This document shows, in pieces, positions 1-22,105 of a DNA stretch of 35,853 bases. The stretch is from a virus. Position 1 is the first letter of the stretch; each line of letters starts with the position of its first letter. Both the position numbers and the translations under genes were made by a program. The stretch lies in the IMG/VR virus record IMGVR_UViG_3300010391_000005, positions 1-35,853 of that record. One strand, given 5' to 3'. The notes under the pieces are model-generated. The model was not told the DNA's origin, did not search any database, and saw nothing but the letters and a program-made list of their open reading frames with translations.

Positions 1-252
1 ATCAAATACAATAGGCATCAAAGGATAGCTTTAGTTCCTTACCTGTATTTAATAGGCTATACTGGTCCTTCTAACATTGATAATGCAGATGGTGAAATCG
101 CTGAAGAGGTAGATGAAAATCTTAAAGAAAAGATTTTAAATATGGCTAAAAGATTTATATGGAAAGGCTATTCTGTTGTTGAGTTTGATGATCTATTAAA
201 ACTACCCGAAGATTTCTGGTTCAACAGGAGTGATGATGGCTATCCGCAATAA
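1..252 (+). CDS. C-terminal part of an unknown protein (5' end outside window)
   Basis: Frame 1 is open from the first base to the TAA at 250-252 and gives 83 residues of ordinary-looking protein: an aliphatic/aromatic N-terminal stretch (ALVPYLYLIGY), an acidic helix, then a segment ending in PEDFWFNRSDDGYPQ. I do not recognise the family. Its last 17 bases overlap the start of the portal gene, and the portal ribosome-binding site (AGGAG at 226-230) lies inside it, so the two genes are probably translated from one message. In T4 the gene before gp20 is the tail tube gp19, but this is not gp19, because the tube gene is at 27780. It is most likely a head or DNA-packaging protein by position only. 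Confidence 0.6.
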   Translation: MKYNRHQRIALVPYLYLIGYTGPSNIDNADGEIAEEVDENLKEKILNMAKRFIWKGYSVVEFDDLLKLPEDFWFNRSDDGYPQ

Positions 253-3200
253 AGAGATTGAAAAAAGATCAGAGACAATACAGCAGTATTTCAACAAAAT
301 CAATATCACCAGAATCAGAGATCTCATAACTCCAACAGATAGAAGAGGCGAAGAGTCTACTTTTGCTTTTAGTGCTTATCGAACTTCAGTAGAAAATTTA
401 ACTGTAATAGATCAAAGCAGGTTACAGAGATATAGAGAATATGAGCAAATGTGTTACGTACCGGAATTGAATGGTGGTTTAGAGCTGTATTGTTTCACTG
501 GAGATACTAAAATATATACCCCTACTGGTTTTATAACAGTCAGAGAGCTTGTAGAAAAAAATATAAAAGATTTCTACGTATTCTCATATGATTTTAAAAA
601 ACATAAAGTTGTGTGTGCTAAGGCTAATAATGCCCATAAATCTGGTGAAAGTAAAACTCTCAAAATAACTCTAGATGATGGTTCGTCAATAAGAGTTACA
701 CCACATCACAAGTTCTTGCTCAGAAACGAGAAATGGATAAAGGCTAAAAACCTATCAGTCGGAGACAGCTTGATGCCTCTCTATACAAGAATTAGAGATG
801 AGCGTGTTCAGATAAACAACTTAGCTGGTGATTGGGTTAAAAGATTCAGGATAGTTGGTGAATTAAAATATGGCGATTTACCAAAGGGCCATCAGATCCA
901 CCATGTTGATTTAAATAAATCCAATGATAGTCCAGAAAATTTAACTCTATTAACTACTGAGGAGCATTTAAGTCTCCATCACATCGATGTCCCAAGAGGC
1001 TCTATAGGCGATAAAGACTGGTGGTTAATTGAAGCGAACAGAAAAGCACATTCGGATAGAGTTTCAAAAAGAAATAAATTAATGTGGGCCGAAAAAAGAT
1101 CGGAGCTTATCAATGCTATAAAAACAGGAGTAGCACAGTCAAATTATGATAGGCATTGGACCGATAAAGAGAAATCAGATTTTTCTGAATACATTAAAAA
1201 CAAATATAAATCAGACCCTTATTATAAATTGAAAGTATCTAATCTCGGCTCAAAGAATGGAAGATTTGTAAAGAGCGTCTCATATTCTGACTTATTCGAG
1301 ATCGCAAAGACATCAGACAATAGTATAGATTTCCATAAAAATTGCAACAATTTATTGAATGTGTCTTATAGAGTAACAGATAGATTGCTTAAACCAATGA
1401 GATTAACTCCATTGAAGCTAATTAATTTAGCAAAAAACCATAAAGTAGTAAGTATCGAAATATCAGAAGAAGTAGAAGAAGTATTTGACATAACAGTACC
1501 GAGCTATAACAATTTCGCGACTGATTCTATTTTTATACACAACTCAGACGACGCTTCACTATATAATGAGAAAGATGAAGTTGTAGAAATAGATTCAGAC
1601 AATCAAGAGATAAGTGATACATTAGATGATCTATGGTTTAAATCACTAGACATGAATTCCGTCTTATGGCACATTGTTTATAATACTTGTAAATATGGTG
1701 ATGCTTTCTATGAAATAATACCCGATAGTTATAGTAATCCTAAGAAAATCAAGCACATAAGATTTGTGCCACCACAATTTGTAGTCAGAAGAGAGAAAGA
1801 TGCTAACTTGCTAGAATTTGTGGTCAGAATCACTCCCGACTCTAGGACGCCAACATCCGCTACTTATTACAGTTCAGCTGAAGCTTCAGAATTTGTATTA
1901 AAGCCGTGGCAAATGGTTCATTTTAAATTAGACGATAAAGAATTTGACCCTTATGGCAAATCAGTTCTAGAACCCGGAAGATTAGCTTTCAAACAAATGA
2001 AATTGATTGAAGATGCTATGATGATTTACAGGATGTCTAGGGCTCCAGAGAGAAGAGTCTTTGGTATTCCCGTAGGGAATTTACCATATAGAGAAGCTAT
2101 GAAGAGAGTTGAAGATATCAAAACTAGATATCGCAAGACTCCATGGATTGATCCTACTAGTGGTGAAATAAACTATAATGCTAATCCTTTGTGTTTAGCT
2201 CTAGATACAAAAATTGATTTACTAGATGGAAGATCTGAATCGTTATCTACTTTAATAGAGGAATTCAAATCTGGTAAAGAAAATTGGGTTTACTCTGTTG
2301 ATACTTCTAGAAATAACAAAATAGTACCTGGTAAAATTGAATGGGCTGGCATCACAAGAAAGAACGCAGAACTCGTAGAAGTTTTTATAGATAATGGAAA
2401 ATCTATTAAGTGCACTCCAGACCATAAATTTATGCTTAGAGATGGCAGCTATAAAGAGGCAAGGGATTTAGTAGCCGGTGAGAGCCTGATGCCTAAGTAT
2501 ACTAAAACATCTAAGAAAGGATACGAAAAAATATTCGACCCAAATACTAGAAAATATATACCAACCTACATGATGGTGGTTAGAGAGACTCAATCAAGTC
2601 TCTGGAATAAGAAGTATTCTAAAAAACATATCCATCATTACGATTTAAGAAAGATCAACAATTCACCAAGCAATTTGAAAATATTAGAATCAGTTGAACA
2701 TTTAAGGTTACATGCTATACACAACAAAGAAAACTGGCAAAATAATGAATATAGAGCAAAACAGATTACTTCTAGAATAAAAGCTTGGGTTAACGCATCG
2801 AATGAGCGAAGACAACTACAATCAGAAATTATGATTGAGTACAATAAAAGTGATGCTCATAAGAGAAGTACAATAGCTAGAAACAATAAATTCTGGGCTG
2901 ATGTAGAAAACAGAAAAAGAACTTCTTCTAAAATGCGAAAACCAAAATCTACAACAGAAAAGATGCATATCAAATTTGATGATAAGTTCTGGGGCTTTGT
3001 TGATACGGCTATAAAAACTTATAACATGCAGAACGAAGTAGTTGAAGCTTTAAACTCTAATGATGAATTCTTAAATCATTTCGTTTCTATAACGCCACGA
3101 AGCAACAAACAAATACATAGACATTTATTAACAAAAGCTTATAGAAGTAAGGGATTTGATACTTTCAAAGAGTATTCTTCTTTTGTAAAAAATGGCGAGA

Positions 3201-4312
3201 ACCATAAAGTTGTATCAGTTGAGTATTTAGATTATAAAGAAGACACCGGTTGTATAACAGTAACTGAGTGGCACAACTTTATGACAAATGGAACAACAGT
3301 GAAAAATTCCATAAATGATGATTTTTTCTTACCTCGTCGTCCCGATGGTTCTGGTATCACAATTGATTATTTGCCCGGTGGTCAGCAATTAGGGGAAATA
3401 GACGACGTAAGATATTTTAAAGAGAAAATACTTAGGACAATGAGAATTCCTATGGCTTATCTAACTGGAGAACTAACAGGAGATGTCGCTAGAACTTCTC
3501 TATCAGCTATGGACGTTAGATTTGCTAAAGCAATCGAGAGAATACAAAAACAGGTCATAAAAGGTTTAGAGAAATTAGCTATTATAGAATTAGCTTTTAA
3601 ACGATTCACAATCCAAGATATGCATGAATTCAGAATAAAGCTAACTCCTCCCTCTAAGATTTATGAAATCCAAGAACTTGAAACACTAACGGCTAAATTC
3701 AATACAATTCAAACTGCTCTTCAAATGGCTGATGATCAAGGTAAGCTTTATCTCCCAAGAGAGTGGTTGTACAAAAATATTAGCAAATTCACTGAGCAAG
3801 AAATTTCTAATATTAAACTTATGCAACAAAGAGAGGCTGCCGAGAAAGCGGAACCAGGCGCAGCAGGAGCTGGTGCTGAAGCAGGTGGAGGATTGACTAT
3901 GGGCGGAGCTCCAGGTGGCGGAGTACCCGGCGGAGGATTAGAAGCTGGCGCAGCTGGACCTGAAGCAGGTATTGAAGCTGGCGGAGCGGTGGCAGCAGGA
4001 CCTGAAGCTGGGGGAGCACCAGAAGAAATTCCAGCCGCTGGTGGCGGAGAAGCTGCTTTGACAGCAGCACAAATATTAAAAGTTGCTGGTCAACAGTTCT
4101 TAGTTGAGAACGAAGATGATCTACGCGAATTAATAAAATTCGTGAAGCAATACAAAGAAAACGAAAAGATAACTAAAGATAAATCTGAACAGAAGCCCGA
4201 GAGAAAAATGTACGAAAATAACTTCGAAAATCTTTTCTTACACGGAGAACTCAAAGGGCTAATTAGAAGACGAAATAACAATAATCAGAAAAAGGAAATG
4301 CTCAAAGACTAG
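236..4312 (+). CDS. 20: Portal vertex protein (gp20-like) precursor with two contiguous inteins
   Basis: This is the dodecameric head-tail connector through which DNA enters and leaves the capsid. The extein pieces carry gp20 hallmarks: REYEQM near the N-terminus, the SRAPERRVF...VGNLP block (about 2036-2085), PTSGEINYN before the second intein, and FFLPRRPDGSG...LPGGQQLGEIDDVRYFKEK after it. Two in-frame inteins (491-1543 and 2192-3307) interrupt it. Removing both leaves about 635 residues, against about 524 for T4 gp20, the excess being a Gly/Ala/Pro-rich tail (3840-4075) and a Lys/Glu-rich C-terminus. The ATG at 236 is preferred because AGGAG at 226-230 is well spaced from it; GTG 230 and ATG 233 are alternatives. 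Function of the portal requires both splicing events. The identification is secure; the exact start is less so. Confidence 0.93.
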   Translation: MAIRNKEIEKRSETIQQYFNKINITRIRDLITPTDRRGEESTFAFSAYRTSVENLTVIDQSRLQRYREYEQMCYVPELNGGLELYCFTGDTKIYTPTGFITVRELVEKNIKDFYVFSYDFKKHKVVCAKANNAHKSGESKTLKITLDDGSSIRVTPHHKFLLRNEKWIKAKNLSVGDSLMPLYTRIRDERVQINNLAGDWVKRFRIVGELKYGDLPKGHQIHHVDLNKSNDSPENLTLLTTEEHLSLHHIDVPRGSIGDKDWWLIEANRKAHSDRVSKRNKLMWAEKRSELINAIKTGVAQSNYDRHWTDKEKSDFSEYIKNKYKSDPYYKLKVSNLGSKNGRFVKSVSYSDLFEIAKTSDNSIDFHKNCNNLLNVSYRVTDRLLKPMRLTPLKLINLAKNHKVVSIEISEEVEEVFDITVPSYNNFATDSIFIHNSDDASLYNEKDEVVEIDSDNQEISDTLDDLWFKSLDMNSVLWHIVYNTCKYGDAFYEIIPDSYSNPKKIKHIRFVPPQFVVRREKDANLLEFVVRITPDSRTPTSATYYSSAEASEFVLKPWQMVHFKLDDKEFDPYGKSVLEPGRLAFKQMKLIEDAMMIYRMSRAPERRVFGIPVGNLPYREAMKRVEDIKTRYRKTPWIDPTSGEINYNANPLCLALDTKIDLLDGRSESLSTLIEEFKSGKENWVYSVDTSRNNKIVPGKIEWAGITRKNAELVEVFIDNGKSIKCTPDHKFMLRDGSYKEARDLVAGESLMPKYTKTSKKGYEKIFDPNTRKYIPTYMMVVRETQSSLWNKKYSKKHIHHYDLRKINNSPSNLKILESVEHLRLHAIHNKENWQNNEYRAKQITSRIKAWVNASNERRQLQSEIMIEYNKSDAHKRSTIARNNKFWADVENRKRTSSKMRKPKSTTEKMHIKFDDKFWGFVDTAIKTYNMQNEVVEALNSNDEFLNHFVSITPRSNKQIHRHLLTKAYRSKGFDTFKEYSSFVKNGENHKVVSVEYLDYKEDTGCITVTEWHNFMTNGTTVKNSINDDFFLPRRPDGSGITIDYLPGGQQLGEIDDVRYFKEKILRTMRIPMAYLTGELTGDVARTSLSAMDVRFAKAIERIQKQVIKGLEKLAIIELAFKRFTIQDMHEFRIKLTPPSKIYEIQELETLTAKFNTIQTALQMADDQGKLYLPREWLYKNISKFTEQEISNIKLMQQREAAEKAEPGAAGAGAEAGGGLTMGGAPGGGVPGGGLEAGAAGPEAGIEAGGAVAAGPEAGGAPEEIPAAGGGEAALTAAQILKVAGQQFLVENEDDLRELIKFVKQYKENEKITKDKSEQKPERKMYENNFENLFLHGELKGLIRRRNNNNQKKEMLKD
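491..1543 (+). other. Intein 1 in the portal gene, with HNH-type homing endonuclease region
   Basis: A 351-codon in-frame insertion. It begins with Cys (CFTGDTKIYTPTG, block A), has a block B motif TPHHKFLLR, and ends with VFDITVPSYNNF...FIHN followed by Ser as the +1 extein residue, so all splicing residues (Cys1, the B-block His, penultimate His, terminal Asn, Ser+1) are present. The middle holds an HNH-like region around 885-990 (HQIHHVDLNK, then NDSPENLTLL and EEHLSLHH), followed by a basic helical segment that probably binds DNA. It sits between extein residues LELY and SDDAS in a conserved part of the portal. It should be splicing competent, and the nuclease could make it mobile. Confidence 0.93.
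2192..3307 (+). other. Intein 2 in the portal gene, HNH-type, with Lys instead of the penultimate His
   Basis: A 372-codon in-frame insertion starting with Cys (CLALDTKIDLLDG) and having block B (CTPDHKFMLRDG), block F (CITVTEWHNFMTNG) and the end TTVKN followed by Ser+1. The penultimate residue is Lys where most inteins have His. A central HNH-like region (HIHHYDLRKINNSPSNL, then EHLRLH, about 2627-2715) parallels that of intein 1. The two inteins share layout and several short motifs, such as ESLMPKYT versus DSLMPLYT and GENHKVVSVE versus KNHKVVSIE, so they are probably related copies. The insertion point lies just before the strongly conserved FFLPRR motif of gp20. Confidence 0.92.
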
Positions 4313-17206: not shown

Positions 17207-17486
17207 AGACACTACTCTCTTCTATAATGTAGTTTACAAAGTTGTTCCTACTTTTAATATGGACATAGGTGATCAACGTGTAAAGTACTTCATCATCAAG
17301 GATGATGTAGCAGACGGAGAAGATCTCCATCTCTGGGTTAGACAGGCTTATGCCATAGAATATATTTCGAATAGAACTAAATTCCGGAATATTTTTGATC
17401 TAAAGTCTATTGAGTCACTCCGAGGGTACGTCACTCCAGTAACTGATCGAAAAGAGGTAACTATGACTTTATTGCTAGGTCTTTGA
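17187..17486 (+). CDS. Unknown small protein
   Basis: 99 residues, not recognised. It is an alpha/beta-like protein (FYNVVYKVVPTFNMDIGDQ, YFIIKDDVADGEDLHLWVRQAY), and the last 20 residues are basic then hydrophobic. AGAGGA about 8 bases upstream supports the ATG at 17187. It starts inside the preceding frame. Its end overlaps by 12 bases the end of the zinc-ribbon gene on the other strand, so transcription converges here. Confidence 0.55.
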   Translation: MKIRTIEDTTLFYNVVYKVVPTFNMDIGDQRVKYFIIKDDVADGEDLHLWVRQAYAIEYISNRTKFRNIFDLKSIESLRGYVTPVTDRKEVTMTLLLGL

Positions 17487-17678
17487 TCGAGAGCGATTAG
17501 GAAATTCTGATAGTTTACGTCTTTCTTCCCCACACTTGTTACACTGAGCAATCATTTTCATTTTGCCTTGAAACTTAGCGATCATTTTTATTTCTCCGCC
17601 ACAGTCGCAAAAGAACTTTTCTTTTATAATTTCTCTTCTCGCGTTCTTACTAATTTTTTGAGGTATAATTTGAGCCAT
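17475..17678 (-). CDS. Zinc-ribbon protein
   Basis: 67 residues read on the minus strand. A basic N-terminus (IIPQKISKNARREIIKEK) is followed by a classic zinc ribbon: CDCGGEIKMIAKF, then MIAQCNKCGEERRKL, giving a CxC/CxxC pair of knuckles. AAGG (complement of 17689-17692) lies about 10 bases before ATG 17678; an upstream TTG at 17687 is less likely. It lies downstream of the minus-strand operon but after that operon's terminator. Small zinc ribbons in phages often bind nucleic acid or host RNA polymerase; the role here is unknown. Confidence 0.65.
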   Translation of the reverse strand: MAQIIPQKISKNARREIIKEKFFCDCGGEIKMIAKFQGKMKMIAQCNKCGEERRKLSEFPNRSRSKT

Positions 17679-17764: not shown

Positions 17765-17784
17765 GGGCTAGCGATAGCTAGCCC
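17765..17784 (-). terminator. Terminator of the minus-strand operon
   Basis: A perfect 8-bp stem GGGCTAGC / GCTAGCCC has a 4-base loop. On the minus strand the stem is followed by ATTTTTGTTT, so it stops transcription coming from 19205 to 17807. On the plus strand no T tract follows. Confidence 0.85.
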
Positions 17785-17806: not shown

Positions 17807-18037
17807 TTATTCTTCTTCTTCTTTTAATTCTTTGATTTCTAATTTTCGTTCAACTTTAGCGAATTGACCTTTTTCATTAAAGATAAATTCAATCAAGTTC
17901 TTTTTTACTTTTCCTCTGATTTCGAGTGTAAGATCTAGATCTAGCATTGCAGTCTCTTTGTCTTTAGCAATAACTATTTGCTGGTGAAGGACTTTACACT
18001 CTTTTTTGTCGATTACAAGTATTTCAAAAACTTTCAT
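17807..18037 (-). CDS. Probable internal-start product of the preceding gene (76 aa)
   Basis: Same frame and stop as the 168-aa gene. On the minus strand GAAGGAGG lies 8 bases before this ATG, at least as good a Shine-Dalgarno as that of the full-length start. The product would be the free C-terminal domain (MKVFEILVIDKKECKVLHQ onward), which looks like an independently folded small domain. Full-length and short forms may both be made. It is also possible that the N-terminal 92 residues are a late fusion to an originally separate gene that kept its own start. Confidence 0.5.
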   Translation of the reverse strand: MKVFEILVIDKKECKVLHQQIVIAKDKETAMLDLDLTLEIRGKVKKNLIEFIFNEKGQFAKVERKLEIKELKEEEE

Positions 18038-18313
18038 TAGGTTTTCCTCCTTCGATTTTAACTTCTTTGCTTCTTCTTTTTGTTTTAAAAATTCTTCAAG
18101 AATTTTCTTGATTTCTTCATCACTTTTACTTTTTGGATACGGCCATGGTTGAATTTCTATATAAGGATAATATGGTGCTGTGCCATAATCCCAATTTGGT
18201 AGTGGGTCTCCTGTATAAGGCTGTTGCCACGGTATCCAAGTTATTCCTGACGTAATTGTTGAGTTGCTATTAGTTACGGTATTGCTGTTAAGTATTGTCA
18301 ACTGTTCGCTCAT
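17807..18313 (-). CDS. Two-part protein: Trp/Pro/Tyr-rich region plus conserved-looking C-terminal domain
   Basis: 168 residues, third gene of a minus-strand operon. Residues 1-20 are Asn/Ser/Thr-rich (ILNSNTVTNSNSTITSG), 25-60 are rich in Trp, Pro and Tyr (WIPWQQPYTGDPLPNWDYG), and 62-92 form a Lys/Glu coiled coil. Residues 93-168 form a compact alpha/beta domain (MKVFEILVIDKKECKVLHQ ... AMLDLDLTLEIRGKVKKN). AAGGAG precedes the ATG, which overlaps the stop of the upstream 45-aa gene (ATGA). A second strong ribosome-binding site sits before Met93. I recognise no family; the N-terminal composition suggests a surface-binding or structural segment. Confidence 0.7.
   Translation of the reverse strand: MSEQLTILNSNTVTNSNSTITSGITWIPWQQPYTGDPLPNWDYGTAPYYPYIEIQPWPYPKSKSDEEIKKILEEFLKQKEEAKKLKSKEENLMKVFEILVIDKKECKVLHQQIVIAKDKETAMLDLDLTLEIRGKVKKNLIEFIFNEKGQFAKVERKLEIKELKEEEE
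18046..18053 (-). promoter_or_regulatory. Internal Shine-Dalgarno (GAAGGAGG) inside a coding frame
   Basis: Read on the minus strand it stands 8 bases upstream of the in-frame ATG at 18037 and encodes part of the KEEN segment of the longer protein. It decides the proposed internal start. Confidence 0.6.
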
Positions 18314-18447
18314 TCTGTTTTCTCCTTAGCTCCTCGAGTTCTCTTCTCCTCTCTTTGAAGACTTCTTCTACTCTTGTCCAGTGACAACTTTCTATCACTA
18401 GATTGTAAAAAATATTTTATCTGTTTTTCTTCATCACCTAAAATCAT
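18310..18447 (-). CDS. 45-aa highly charged protein, coupled on both sides
   Basis: A short minus-strand ORF whose ATG overlaps the TGA of the nuclease gene (ATGA, 18444-18447) and whose TGA overlaps the ATG of the next gene (ATGA, 18310-18313). It exactly fills the gap between the two larger genes. The sequence begins MILGDEEKQIKYFLQSSDRK and is very rich in Arg, Lys and Glu toward the C-terminus, so it may be a long charged helix. Its double four-base overlap is the main evidence for translation. Function is unknown. Confidence 0.6.
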   Translation of the reverse strand: MILGDEEKQIKYFLQSSDRKLSLDKSRRSLQREEKRTRGAKEKTE

Positions 18448-19205
18448 TCTATTTTTATATCCTTTACTGTACTATTATAAACTTGCATAGTATTGCCTAT
18501 GTCTGAAGTTACACTTGATCCACTTGATATAGTGTTAGCGTATGTAACATTATTGACTTGAAGATGTCCACTATTTACTTGAGCATTCCATTGATTCAGA
18601 TTGAAATCGAAGCTTCTTACGTCGTTAGCCAAATAGACTATAGGAAAATTTGCTCCTGGATGATCTAAATCCCACCTCATCAGCTCTTCTAGTTCTTGAG
18701 AAGCATCGATACCCTTTTTAGCACAAAAAGATTTAAACTCTAGCCAAACATCTTTATCAATAGTAACTCCAGCTTGAATTTTCTTTTTAGAAATTAGTAA
18801 AGGCTCGTATTCTTTCATAAAATTTTCGACCATTCGTGAAGATTCCCCCTTCGATTTTCCTTTAAAAATTGACCATACCTCTTTATCAACAGAAATTCCC
18901 GGTTTTATTTTTGTAACCATCTCAAATGCCTCCGACTCTCTTATTCTAATAAACTCAAAATCAGGAAATTTTTCTTGTATTATTTTTTGTCTTTTTAAGT
19001 CTTTTTTAATTTGATCTTTAGAACGAAAGTGACGTTCTTCATCCCACTCAATAATTAGTTTAAAATCAAAATTTATATAATCTACTCTATAAAGAGTACC
19101 AGTTATTTTAAACTCATTACCGTCTAATGCATGAACACCTTTAGTGTTATATTTTTGATCAAACATACAAAAAAATCTGCAAGCTTTTTTATTATAAATA
19201 CTCAT
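18444..19205 (-). CDS. Nuclease-like protein with two ribbon-helix-helix-like segments
   Basis: 253 residues from ATG 19205; upstream in-frame ATGs at 19232 and 19223 are alternatives. Residues about 30-95 look like a PD-(D/E)XK/Vsr-type nuclease: GTLYRVDYINFDFKLIIEWD with D42, E53 and D55, then ERHF (H59), and FPDFEFIRIRESEAF as the last strand and helix. Two related segments follow, ISVDKEVWSIFKGKSKGESS (about 104-123) and VTIDKDVWLEFKSFCAKKG (about 147-165), each a beta strand plus two helices like an RHH DNA-binding unit. The C-terminal 70 residues are Asn/Ser/Thr-rich and unrecognised. It is the first gene of a coupled three-gene operon. It may be a homing nuclease or a defence nuclease; the catalytic assignment is tentative. 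Confidence 0.6.
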   Translation of the reverse strand: MSIYNKKACRFFCMFDQKYNTKGVHALDGNEFKITGTLYRVDYINFDFKLIIEWDEERHFRSKDQIKKDLKRQKIIQEKFPDFEFIRIRESEAFEMVTKIKPGISVDKEVWSIFKGKSKGESSRMVENFMKEYEPLLISKKKIQAGVTIDKDVWLEFKSFCAKKGIDASQELEELMRWDLDHPGANFPIVYLANDVRSFDFNLNQWNAQVNSGHLQVNNVTYANTISSGSSVTSDIGNTMQVYNSTVKDIKIE

Positions 19206-19215
19206 ATAAACTCTT

Positions 19216-19232
19216 ATGGCCATAATGGCCAT
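19216..19232. promoter_or_regulatory. Symmetric element of two ATGGCCAT palindromes
   Basis: The 17 bases read ATGGCCATAATGGCCAT: two copies of the 8-base palindrome ATGGCCAT separated by one base. It lies at the start of the minus-strand operon, close to where a repressor such as the operon's own RHH-like protein could bind. The same bases can encode the N-terminal MAIMAI if the far ATG is used, so it may be coding. No sharper evidence is available. Confidence 0.25.
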
Positions 19233-19417
19233 ATTTATATCTTATCATATTTTTTAATAAGTTCAGATATTTCTTGATGAAATCCAAAATTCTTATGTTT
19301 CTTAATAAATTCAAGAAATTCTTAAGAATGCTAATAAAACTAGTTGTAAATAACTCTCCCAAATAACTAATCTTCTTACGTCAAGATAATTAAAATTCTC
19401 TTAACGAGGTAATTTTA

Positions 19418-21032: not shown

Positions 21033-21299
21033 ATGAAACTAAAGCAAGCTATAAAGAAAACTGAAGTAGTAGAAGCTCCACCTCAAGTAAAACCAGGAAG
21101 TAAAGAAGATAAAACTAAACTTGGCAGCTGGATTCGTTTGCTCAAGAAAGGAGATCCATTAGCGATCACGTATGCTGTTGACAAAGTTCCAAGATTAGAA
21201 ATTGGTAGCTGGATCGATAAGCTCAATAGATACAAATATCAAAAATATCCAGGAACTAAAGTAGCTATTAGTAAGCTCAAGTGGAGAAGAGGCTACTAA
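21033..21299 (+). CDS. Unknown basic protein
   Basis: 88 residues, Lys-rich. Two similar short units are visible, KLGSWIRLLKKGDPLA and EIGSWIDKLNRYKYQK, suggesting an internal duplication of a GSWI-containing helix. Its stop overlaps the next ATG by one base (TAATG), and the reading frame ends in the GGAGAAGAGG that serves as ribosome-binding site for that gene. It lies among neck genes and may be structural; not recognised. Confidence 0.55.
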   Translation: MKLKQAIKKTEVVEAPPQVKPGSKEDKTKLGSWIRLLKKGDPLAITYAVDKVPRLEIGSWIDKLNRYKYQKYPGTKVAISKLKWRRGY

Positions 21300-21568
21300 T
21301 GTATTTTCTATATTTTTCTAAACAGATTAATTTTAAAAAGCAACATTTTATACAAATATTGTCTGTCAGAATTAAAAAATCCAACATCATCAACTCTAAA
21401 ACTAAGGTGATAACTTTTGATAAAGAAGTTTATACAAATATACCAGAACTTCCTGCTAATTATGGTTATGCAAGCTATAGAGATCAAGAAATAATAGTAT
21501 TTGACAAAGATTTGTTTGAATCAGTAATAGAAGCTAAAAGGGAAGTCGTAAGAAGAGCGTTTGAATAG
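21299..21568 (+). CDS. Unknown protein, first of a duplicated pair (MYFLYF family)
   Basis: 89 residues starting MYFLYFSKQINFKKQHFIQI and ending DQEIIVFDKDLFESVIEAK then REVVRRAFE. It is paralogous to the next gene. The ATG at 21299 is preferred to an upstream GTG because GGAGAAGAGG is correctly spaced and the paralogue starts at the equivalent place. It is an alpha/beta small protein with basic surface; function unknown. Confidence 0.65.
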   Translation: MYFLYFSKQINFKKQHFIQILSVRIKKSNIINSKTKVITFDKEVYTNIPELPANYGYASYRDQEIIVFDKDLFESVIEAKREVVRRAFE

Positions 21569-21582
21569 TTCGGGAGCTACTA

Positions 21583-21834
21583 ATGTATTTTTTGTATTTC
21601 GCAAAACACTTGGGCTCTGGTAGACACTTTATAGAGATAACAGAAGGAGATGTCATAAGATCTGAAGAAGCTACAAAAGACATAAGAGTCAAAAAAGTAG
21701 TTTTCAAAAATTTGCTCGACTTGAGAGTAAGTCCAAGAAAAGAAGAAGAAATTGTAGTTTTATCAAATGATCTATTTAATACAATTAGAGAAGCTAAAAA
21801 AGAAGCTCTGAGGAGGATCTTTGAGGAAATATAA
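21583..21834 (+). CDS. Unknown protein, second of the duplicated pair (MYFLYF family)
   Basis: 83 residues beginning MYFLYFAKHLGSGRHFIEI and ending EEIVVLSNDLFNTIREAKK then EALRRIFEEI. Both ends align with the previous gene, and the shared sequence GCTACTAATGTATTTT covers the start region too, so this is a tandem gene duplication. The AGGAGG near its 3' end serves the next gene, whose TTG start overlaps it by 14 bases. Confidence 0.65.
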   Translation: MYFLYFAKHLGSGRHFIEITEGDVIRSEEATKDIRVKKVVFKNLLDLRVSPRKEEEIVVLSNDLFNTIREAKKEALRRIFEEI

Positions 21835-22105
21835 CTCTGAAGACTTTGTTGGAAAATGGTTTAGCAATGTAACTGGTAGACCTGAGTTTTACTTTTTTAT
21901 ATTAGCAGCTGAACCCCAAACAGAACATGAAGCTCTTCAAGAAATGATTACCGCTAAATATGTCATCTTAGGACCTCGGGGCATTACTATTGGCTGGTCG
22001 GGTTTATATCCTCGTCTTATGGGACAATCCTTAAAACTCTACGATTTACCCAAAGATGCACATTTCAAAGTAATACACAGAATCTTCAAAAGACAAGCAG
22101 ACTAA
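21821..22105 (+). CDS. Unknown protein with TTG start
   Basis: 94 residues read from TTG 21821, which has AGGAGG about 5 bases upstream; no other start codon lies near. The protein (YNSEDFVGKWFSNVTGRP, FYFFILAAEPQTEHEALQE, ITIGWSGLYPRLMGQSL) looks like a small beta-rich domain, perhaps SH3- or Ig-like. It sits between the duplicated pair and the gp14-like gene in the neck module. Function unknown. Confidence 0.6.
   Translation: MRKYNSEDFVGKWFSNVTGRPEFYFFILAAEPQTEHEALQEMITAKYVILGPRGITIGWSGLYPRLMGQSLKLYDLPKDAHFKVIHRIFKRQAD

Follow-up and report, generated by a model that had tools for sequence, protein, structure and literature searches.

A native, probably autoregulated operon of a T4-like phage clade whose first gene appears to have captured a homing endonuclease domain

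MetJ/Arc-type RHH repressors combine a short RHH segment with an operator built of repeated short palindromic boxes. Among phage endonucleases, I-TevI, the endonuclease of the phage T4 td intron, doubles as an autorepressor, its DNA-binding part recognising in addition an operator located at the late promoter of its gene (PMC2988022). In the phage homing endonuclease I-Bth0305I, of the EDxHD type, an extended DNA-binding region is combined with an active site that resembles those of restriction enzymes (PMC3943268). The operon described here shares traits with each of them. Its first gene, g1, resembles the MetJ/Arc repressors in having a short RHH-like segment together with repeated palindromic boxes, membership being assigned by pattern alone, and differs from them in a fused tail and, in the phage analysed, a nuclease. 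As with I-TevI, a phage endonuclease would here be tied to an operator-binding part; I-TevI, however, is an intron-encoded GIY-YIG enzyme with another DNA-binding part, whereas the nuclease of g1 is Vsr/DUF559-like and is joined to the RHH-like segments of a gene resident in the phage. The likeness to I-Bth0305I lies in the arrangement of a homing endonuclease whose active site is restriction-enzyme-like and sits on a DNA-binding region, and comparison of the g1 nuclease with solved EDxHD-type structures such as I-Bth0305I gave no sequence match. The same catalytic domain (40–51% identical, with all invariant columns in common) is present in a set of homing endonucleases that join NUMOD3 to a DUF559-like nuclease (loci L036, L039, L042, L050, L051 and L058); these have NUMOD3 repeats ahead of the nuclease and, unlike g1, no RHH-like segment. 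Our literature search, whose coverage was limited and which is not proof of absence, found no description of a fusion between an RHH protein and a homing endonuclease.

The stretch of DNA analysed, hereafter the window, is the 35,853-nt IMG/VR viral record IMGVR_UViG_3300010391_000005 (positions 1–35,853). The virus is a T4-like myovirus, in which a portal with an intein, the major head protein, an SU10-type adaptor and the tail sheath were recognised; among cultured phages, the head protein shows a distant likeness to that of Rhodothermus phage RM378 and others. The intein of the T4-like portal gene (230–4312) bears an HNH endonuclease (Pfam Intein_splicing 2.7e-38, HNH_3 8.6e-15), so that the contig has at least two homing-type nucleases. 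The original prediction, made from the letters of the window, described a minus-strand cassette of three ORFs with ATGA at both junctions and a dedicated terminator at its end. Both are present as described, and the terminator is strong, with none of 200 shuffles equally stable. The cassette was also called isolated, which holds in that g1, g2 and g3 all lie on the minus strand and fails in that a conserved minus-strand gene, g4, follows just past the terminator. The features of the operon are the following:

18444..19205, minus strand: g1, 253 aa, a chimera of a homing-type nuclease, two RHH-like segments and a conserved tail
18915..19205, minus strand: nuclease catalytic domain of g1, DUF559/Vsr-like, residues 1–97
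18801..18914, minus strand: RHH-like segment 1 of g1, residues 98–135
18663..18791, minus strand: RHH-like segment 2 of g1, residues 139–181, the orthologous one by position
18447..18662, minus strand: conserved g1 tail, ending in K-D-I-x-I-E
18310..18447, minus strand: g2 as first read, 45 aa, its 5′ part in the homologous frame and its 3′ part out of frame
17807..18313, minus strand: g3, 168 aa, its N-terminus variable and W/P/Y-rich, followed by a helix and then a conserved C-terminal domain
17843..18052, minus strand: conserved domain of g3, residues 88–157, predicted beta-beta-alpha-alpha-beta, pLDDT mostly 78–82
17765..17784, minus strand: intrinsic terminator of the operon, z-score −4.86
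17475..17678, minus strand: g4, zinc-ribbon-like (CxCGG..CxxC), a conserved downstream gene

Relatives of the locus were gathered with g3 as the query, and more were then added by using the adaptor gene as an anchor; a full-length g1 query returned no relatives in viral contigs, because the nuclease fusion hides the conserved part of the protein. In every contig that covers the region (the window, L002, L003, L005, L008, L011, L021, L024, L025 and L030), g1 lies directly upstream of g3, so that this pair is present in ten distinct contigs, all from an uncultured clade of T4-like viruses; L026 is like L025. Wherever both occur on the same stretch, the pair and the neck/adaptor gene are divergently oriented, the exception being L024, where the pair lies about 2 kb from the adaptor gene on the same strand; in L025 the distance is about 4 kb, with several ORFs between. 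Contigs L023 and L002, from the same metagenome, probably abut, as the edge of L023 holds the promoter and boxes and the edge of L002 begins with g1; the abutment is read from these edges, and the two were kept separate. L031, a distant adaptor relative (22% identity), gave no match to g1 or g3. Outside the clade, no relative of g1–g3 was found in these searches: a scan of genome contigs with g3 found nothing, and searches among annotated phages with g3 and g1 gave no relatives, three weak matches being judged chance. From these sequence comparisons, we conclude that g1 and g3 are a conserved two-gene unit native to this T4-like clade. The adjacency of the pair in all covering contigs, without a relative outside the clade, contradicts the earlier suggestion of an imported functional module, and a check for the three genes occurring together elsewhere showed the nuclease to be missing from the g1 of most relatives and g2 from all but one.

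Two observations were made on genes near the locus. By sequence reading, L023 has phosphoribosyl pyrophosphate synthetase-like and PAS-like ORFs (176–1526) before the adaptor gene near the contig edge. Many small neighbouring proteins in the window (21299–22105), L024 (74–1849) and L005 (3162–4277) seemingly have a common short C-terminal tail (..AIKRIFEE, ..KLQLRGLV), a pattern with a modest count (9 of 84 main-strand ORFs versus 0 of 50 on the other strand).

A homologue of g2 was found in L002 only, between the g1 and g3 of that contig, and the ORF lists leave no room for g2 between g1 and g3 in L003, L005, L008, L011, L021, L024, L025 and L030. The 45-aa ORF aligns in frame with L002 at first and is out of frame from about residue 15, the shift being due to one extra T in a run of six:

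18407..18412, minus strand: T6 run with one base over the homologous frame
18288..18401, minus strand: rest of g2 as read in the frame shared with L002 (..IESCHWTRVEEVFKERRRELEELRRKQ..), E 5e-13

The homologous frame continues for about 28 codons with 18 identities, and the differences between the window and L002 are distributed 6/6/16 over the three codon positions; over the same stretch (18288–18401), the 45-aa frame has three stops in L002. The distribution by codon position, together with the continuation in the other frame, indicates that the 45-aa frame is not the conserved one. The 45-aa protein predicted as the middle gene was therefore abandoned, its frame being shifted relative to L002 and no copy being present in the other relatives; the original prediction had itself named lack of conservation of this frame as an outcome that would refute it. 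The second ATGA junction (g2/g3), present in the letters, depends on that shifted frame. A programmed −1 shift at TTTTTTA was rejected, as it runs straight into a stop; the homologous frame needs +1, and no known +1 signal was recognised in the sequence. The extra T is more readily explained by mutation or by an error of assembly than by a programmed frameshift.

The g1 of the window runs from the nuclease domain through two RHH-like segments to the tail, with an alternative in-frame start at 19232. In the relatives, g1 is about 101–118 aa long and consists of an RHH-like segment followed by a tail that contains a conserved W and ends in a K-D-I-x-I-E-like sequence. Segment 1 of the window shares 53% identity with the RHH-like segment of L002, which has just one, and segment 2 shares 60% identity with that of L021, and the tail, which is found in all relatives, is identical to the L021 tail at 30 of 64 residues. 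The g1 of L025 has two RHH-like segments, as in the window; its nuclease is a separate ORF that overlaps the start of g1, and a zinc-finger ORF precedes the nuclease ORF. The two RHH-like segments of the original prediction are present by pattern, which is the primary support for them together with a weak match of segment 2 to the solved structure 2kel (E 0.021), presumably an archaeal-virus RHH regulator. On the other side, no Pfam RHH family was matched in six aligned g1 proteins, an hhalign comparison with 2kel gave no clear support, and the AlphaFold model of g1 is of low confidence (mean pLDDT 47.8); we regard the RHH assignment as weak.

The nuclease-like domain foreseen in the first gene was recovered as DUF559/MTES_1575, with a match that is weak for the window directly and firm through its relatives. 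A 20-member alignment of the family has 12 invariant columns, all 12 of which are retained in the window, including E31, D42, E53, E56, H59 and D69. A search for this family gave 27 matching loci, of which four were L025/L026 copies found before, and the ORFs read at these loci place the same domain in some 20 other viral genes, at the C-terminus and typically behind NUMOD3 repeats or zinc-finger-like regions. Among eight family members scanned, NUMOD3 was detected in six (E < 0.04, four clear; best Pfam E 1.6e-14) and DUF559 in six (E < 0.03; best 1.4e-6). Pseudoalteromonas phage pYD6-A gave a weak distant match, an annotated homing endonuclease that lies inside its split ribonucleotide reductase gene. 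At g1 itself, the nuclease occurs only in the window and L025; g1 is without it in L003, L005, L008, L011, L024, L030 and L021, the last being the closest relative, with a single-RHH g1. A full-length zinc-finger/nuclease gene stands just after the adaptor gene in L025 (5786–6607), and a decayed nuclease copy occupies the same place in L021 (5839–5970). Multiple copies, NUMOD3 and zinc-finger partners, patchy presence and a position beside the adaptor gene form the distribution typical of homing endonucleases, and the homing system that had been proposed is right for the nuclease domain, given this family context and its patchy presence at g1. By the same comparisons, g1 of the window appears to have captured the catalytic domain of a homing endonuclease; this domain may be decaying or kept just as a passenger. 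The nuclease and RHH trees are poorly supported and are compatible with either one capture or two (window and L025).

A heavy homing-endonuclease load was seen in one 178-kb virus, IMGVR_UViG_3300032046_000003, with seven matches to the nuclease family at different places (L036, L038, L042, L044, L047, L048 and L049).

The presence of homing-type nucleases or their remnants beside the adaptor gene in L025 and L021 agrees with another origin for the fusion, in which a free-standing homing endonuclease was dropped ahead of g1 by homing at the adaptor gene or another neighbour, and the fusion would serve no separate function. The cleavage sites of free-standing phage endonucleases lie hundreds to thousands of bases away from the gene that encodes the enzyme (PMC2988022), and the nuclease of L025 is a separate ORF; in the window, however, the NUMOD3/zinc-finger region is gone, the ORF starts at the catalytic part and continues in frame into the two RHH-like segments, and the invariant residues are intact despite the long branch of this nuclease in the tree. 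We consider this origin rather unlikely, although it fares best among the alternatives.

The DNA ahead of g1 contains two elements that bear on how the operon would be controlled:

19232..19246, minus strand: promoter-like motif GATAAGATATAAATA, with clade consensus CATAAGwTAAnTATA, containing TATAAATA
19215..19233, no strand assigned: candidate operator TATGGCCATAATGGCCATA, with two tandem 8-bp palindromes ATGGCCAT

The element TATAAATA, which we take to be the T4 late −10 consensus, occurs at eight sites in the window versus 4.4 expected. CATAAG[AT]TAA has six occurrences in the clade loci examined: ahead of g1 in L003, L008, L011 and L024, ahead of a small operon-leading ORF in L005, and at the contig edge of L023, where it probably precedes the g1 of L002. 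Sequence reading revealed close variants ahead of g1 in the window and L021, and a possible variant precedes the zinc-finger ORF of L025. The motif is followed by AT-rich sequence and repeats. The palindrome ATGGCCAT occurs twice in the 35,853 bases of the window (0.27 expected), both times ahead of g1, and recurs at the corresponding place in relatives, where L024 and the L023 edge have two copies apiece and L008 and L011 a single copy; over ten records, six of its 14 places are at a g1 promoter, so that it is concentrated there and not exclusive. Different inverted repeats are found at the operator place in L003, L005, L021 and L030. In eight contigs, the strongest inverted repeat within the 60 nt that precede g1 was compared with dinucleotide shuffles, which gave a Fisher p of 1.3e-5, an optimistic value, as the contigs are related and some of the repeats are simple AT runs. 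Scanning all viral contigs for the motif plus box returned ten stretches, namely the L024 site, the L023 edge and eight others with no g1 or g3 homologue. The motif and palindromic boxes ahead of g1 are as expected of an autoregulated RHH operon.

The reading that we favour, with a probability of roughly 60%, is that of a native, probably autoregulated operon of the T4-like clade, into whose first gene the catalytic domain of a homing endonuclease was captured. The RHH-like segments of g1 would bind the palindromic boxes just downstream of the promoter, and this binding would repress the operon itself and limit g3; by analogy with RHH repressors and I-TevI, we infer that autorepression by g1 is the likeliest working. 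In the window, the two linked RHH-like segments might form a single-chain DNA-binding unit that would bring the nuclease domain to the operator or to a site like it, g1 then being autorepressor and endonuclease at once, like I-TevI of T4. During co-infection, a nuclease-free relative would be cleaved and the nuclease allele would spread by gene conversion. More tentative, and on balance doubtful, is the further proposal that a phage autorepressor became a homing endonuclease, its RHH-like segments having replaced the NUMOD/zinc-finger part of a homing nuclease so that the enzyme is aimed at the operator of its own gene, perhaps in two captures (window and L025), each with two RHH-like segments. 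Against the favoured reading count the intact candidate operator of the nuclease-bearing phage, where self-cleavage would have to be avoided, the weak RHH assignment, the long branch of a nuclease that may be decaying or a passenger, and the different inverted repeats of L003, L021 and L030 at the operator place.

The second conserved gene of the unit, g3, has 18 invariant columns in its C-terminal domain across eight contigs, and its model predicts a long helix and, at moderate confidence, the conserved domain. A Foldseek comparison of the model with viral and solved structures gave no credible match, and g3 had no family match in searches that included toxin, defence, toxin-antitoxin and structural PHROG families. 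The genes that follow vary. Homologues of g4 are present in the window, L002, L005, L011 and L021, the one in L011 (7467–7640) having lost most metal-binding cysteines. A response regulator with an HD (HD-GYP-like) domain follows directly after g3 in L002 (1126–2091; Pfam), and an HD-domain response regulator does so in L030 (2789–3859; sequence reading); the HD-GYP-like response regulator would be a signalling gene within a phage operon.

Such an arrangement, with an RHH-like gene first, g3 overlapping or close behind, a conserved promoter with inverted repeats and varying companions, could be that of a toxin-antitoxin-like or anti-defence operon, in which the RHH regulator (antitoxin or Aca-like) would be g1 and the effector would be g3, accompanied by optional extras (g2, the HD-GYP regulator, the zinc ribbon); archaeal viruses offer known examples of anti-defence genes that lie under a common conserved regulatory sequence (PMC11065993). 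The gene order is thus compatible with the toxin-antitoxin-like system of the original prediction, but no toxin, defence or toxin-antitoxin family convincingly matches the regulator part of g1 or g3, PADLOC returned just a weak restriction-enzyme match to the nuclease part of g1, and g3 has no fold match. Moreover, g3 is in every contig of the clade, whereas most anti-defence genes are, to our knowledge, not present throughout a clade. This explanation is unlikely. Still less likely, g1–g3 might be minor virion or assembly proteins transcribed backwards beside the neck gene, as their location between capsid and neck genes, the tryptophan/proline/tyrosine-rich N-terminus and predicted long helix of g3 and the presence of TATAAATA ahead of g1 could suggest, against which stand the location on the other strand, equipped with a separate promoter-like motif and terminator, the L024 operon lying elsewhere and turned relative to the adaptor gene, and the lack of a structural PHROG match.

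Taken as a native operon of the T4-like clade, g1–g3 is an uncharacterised, strictly kept unit with a promoter-box pair, and the locus illustrates how what looks like a compact imported cassette can consist of a conserved operon, a mobile domain and a shifted frame. Should the fused protein cleave at the sites bound by its RHH-like segments, it would illustrate how homing endonucleases gain new targets by capturing a resident regulator, and such operator-aimed capture, if true, would provide a ready means of acquiring new homing specificities.
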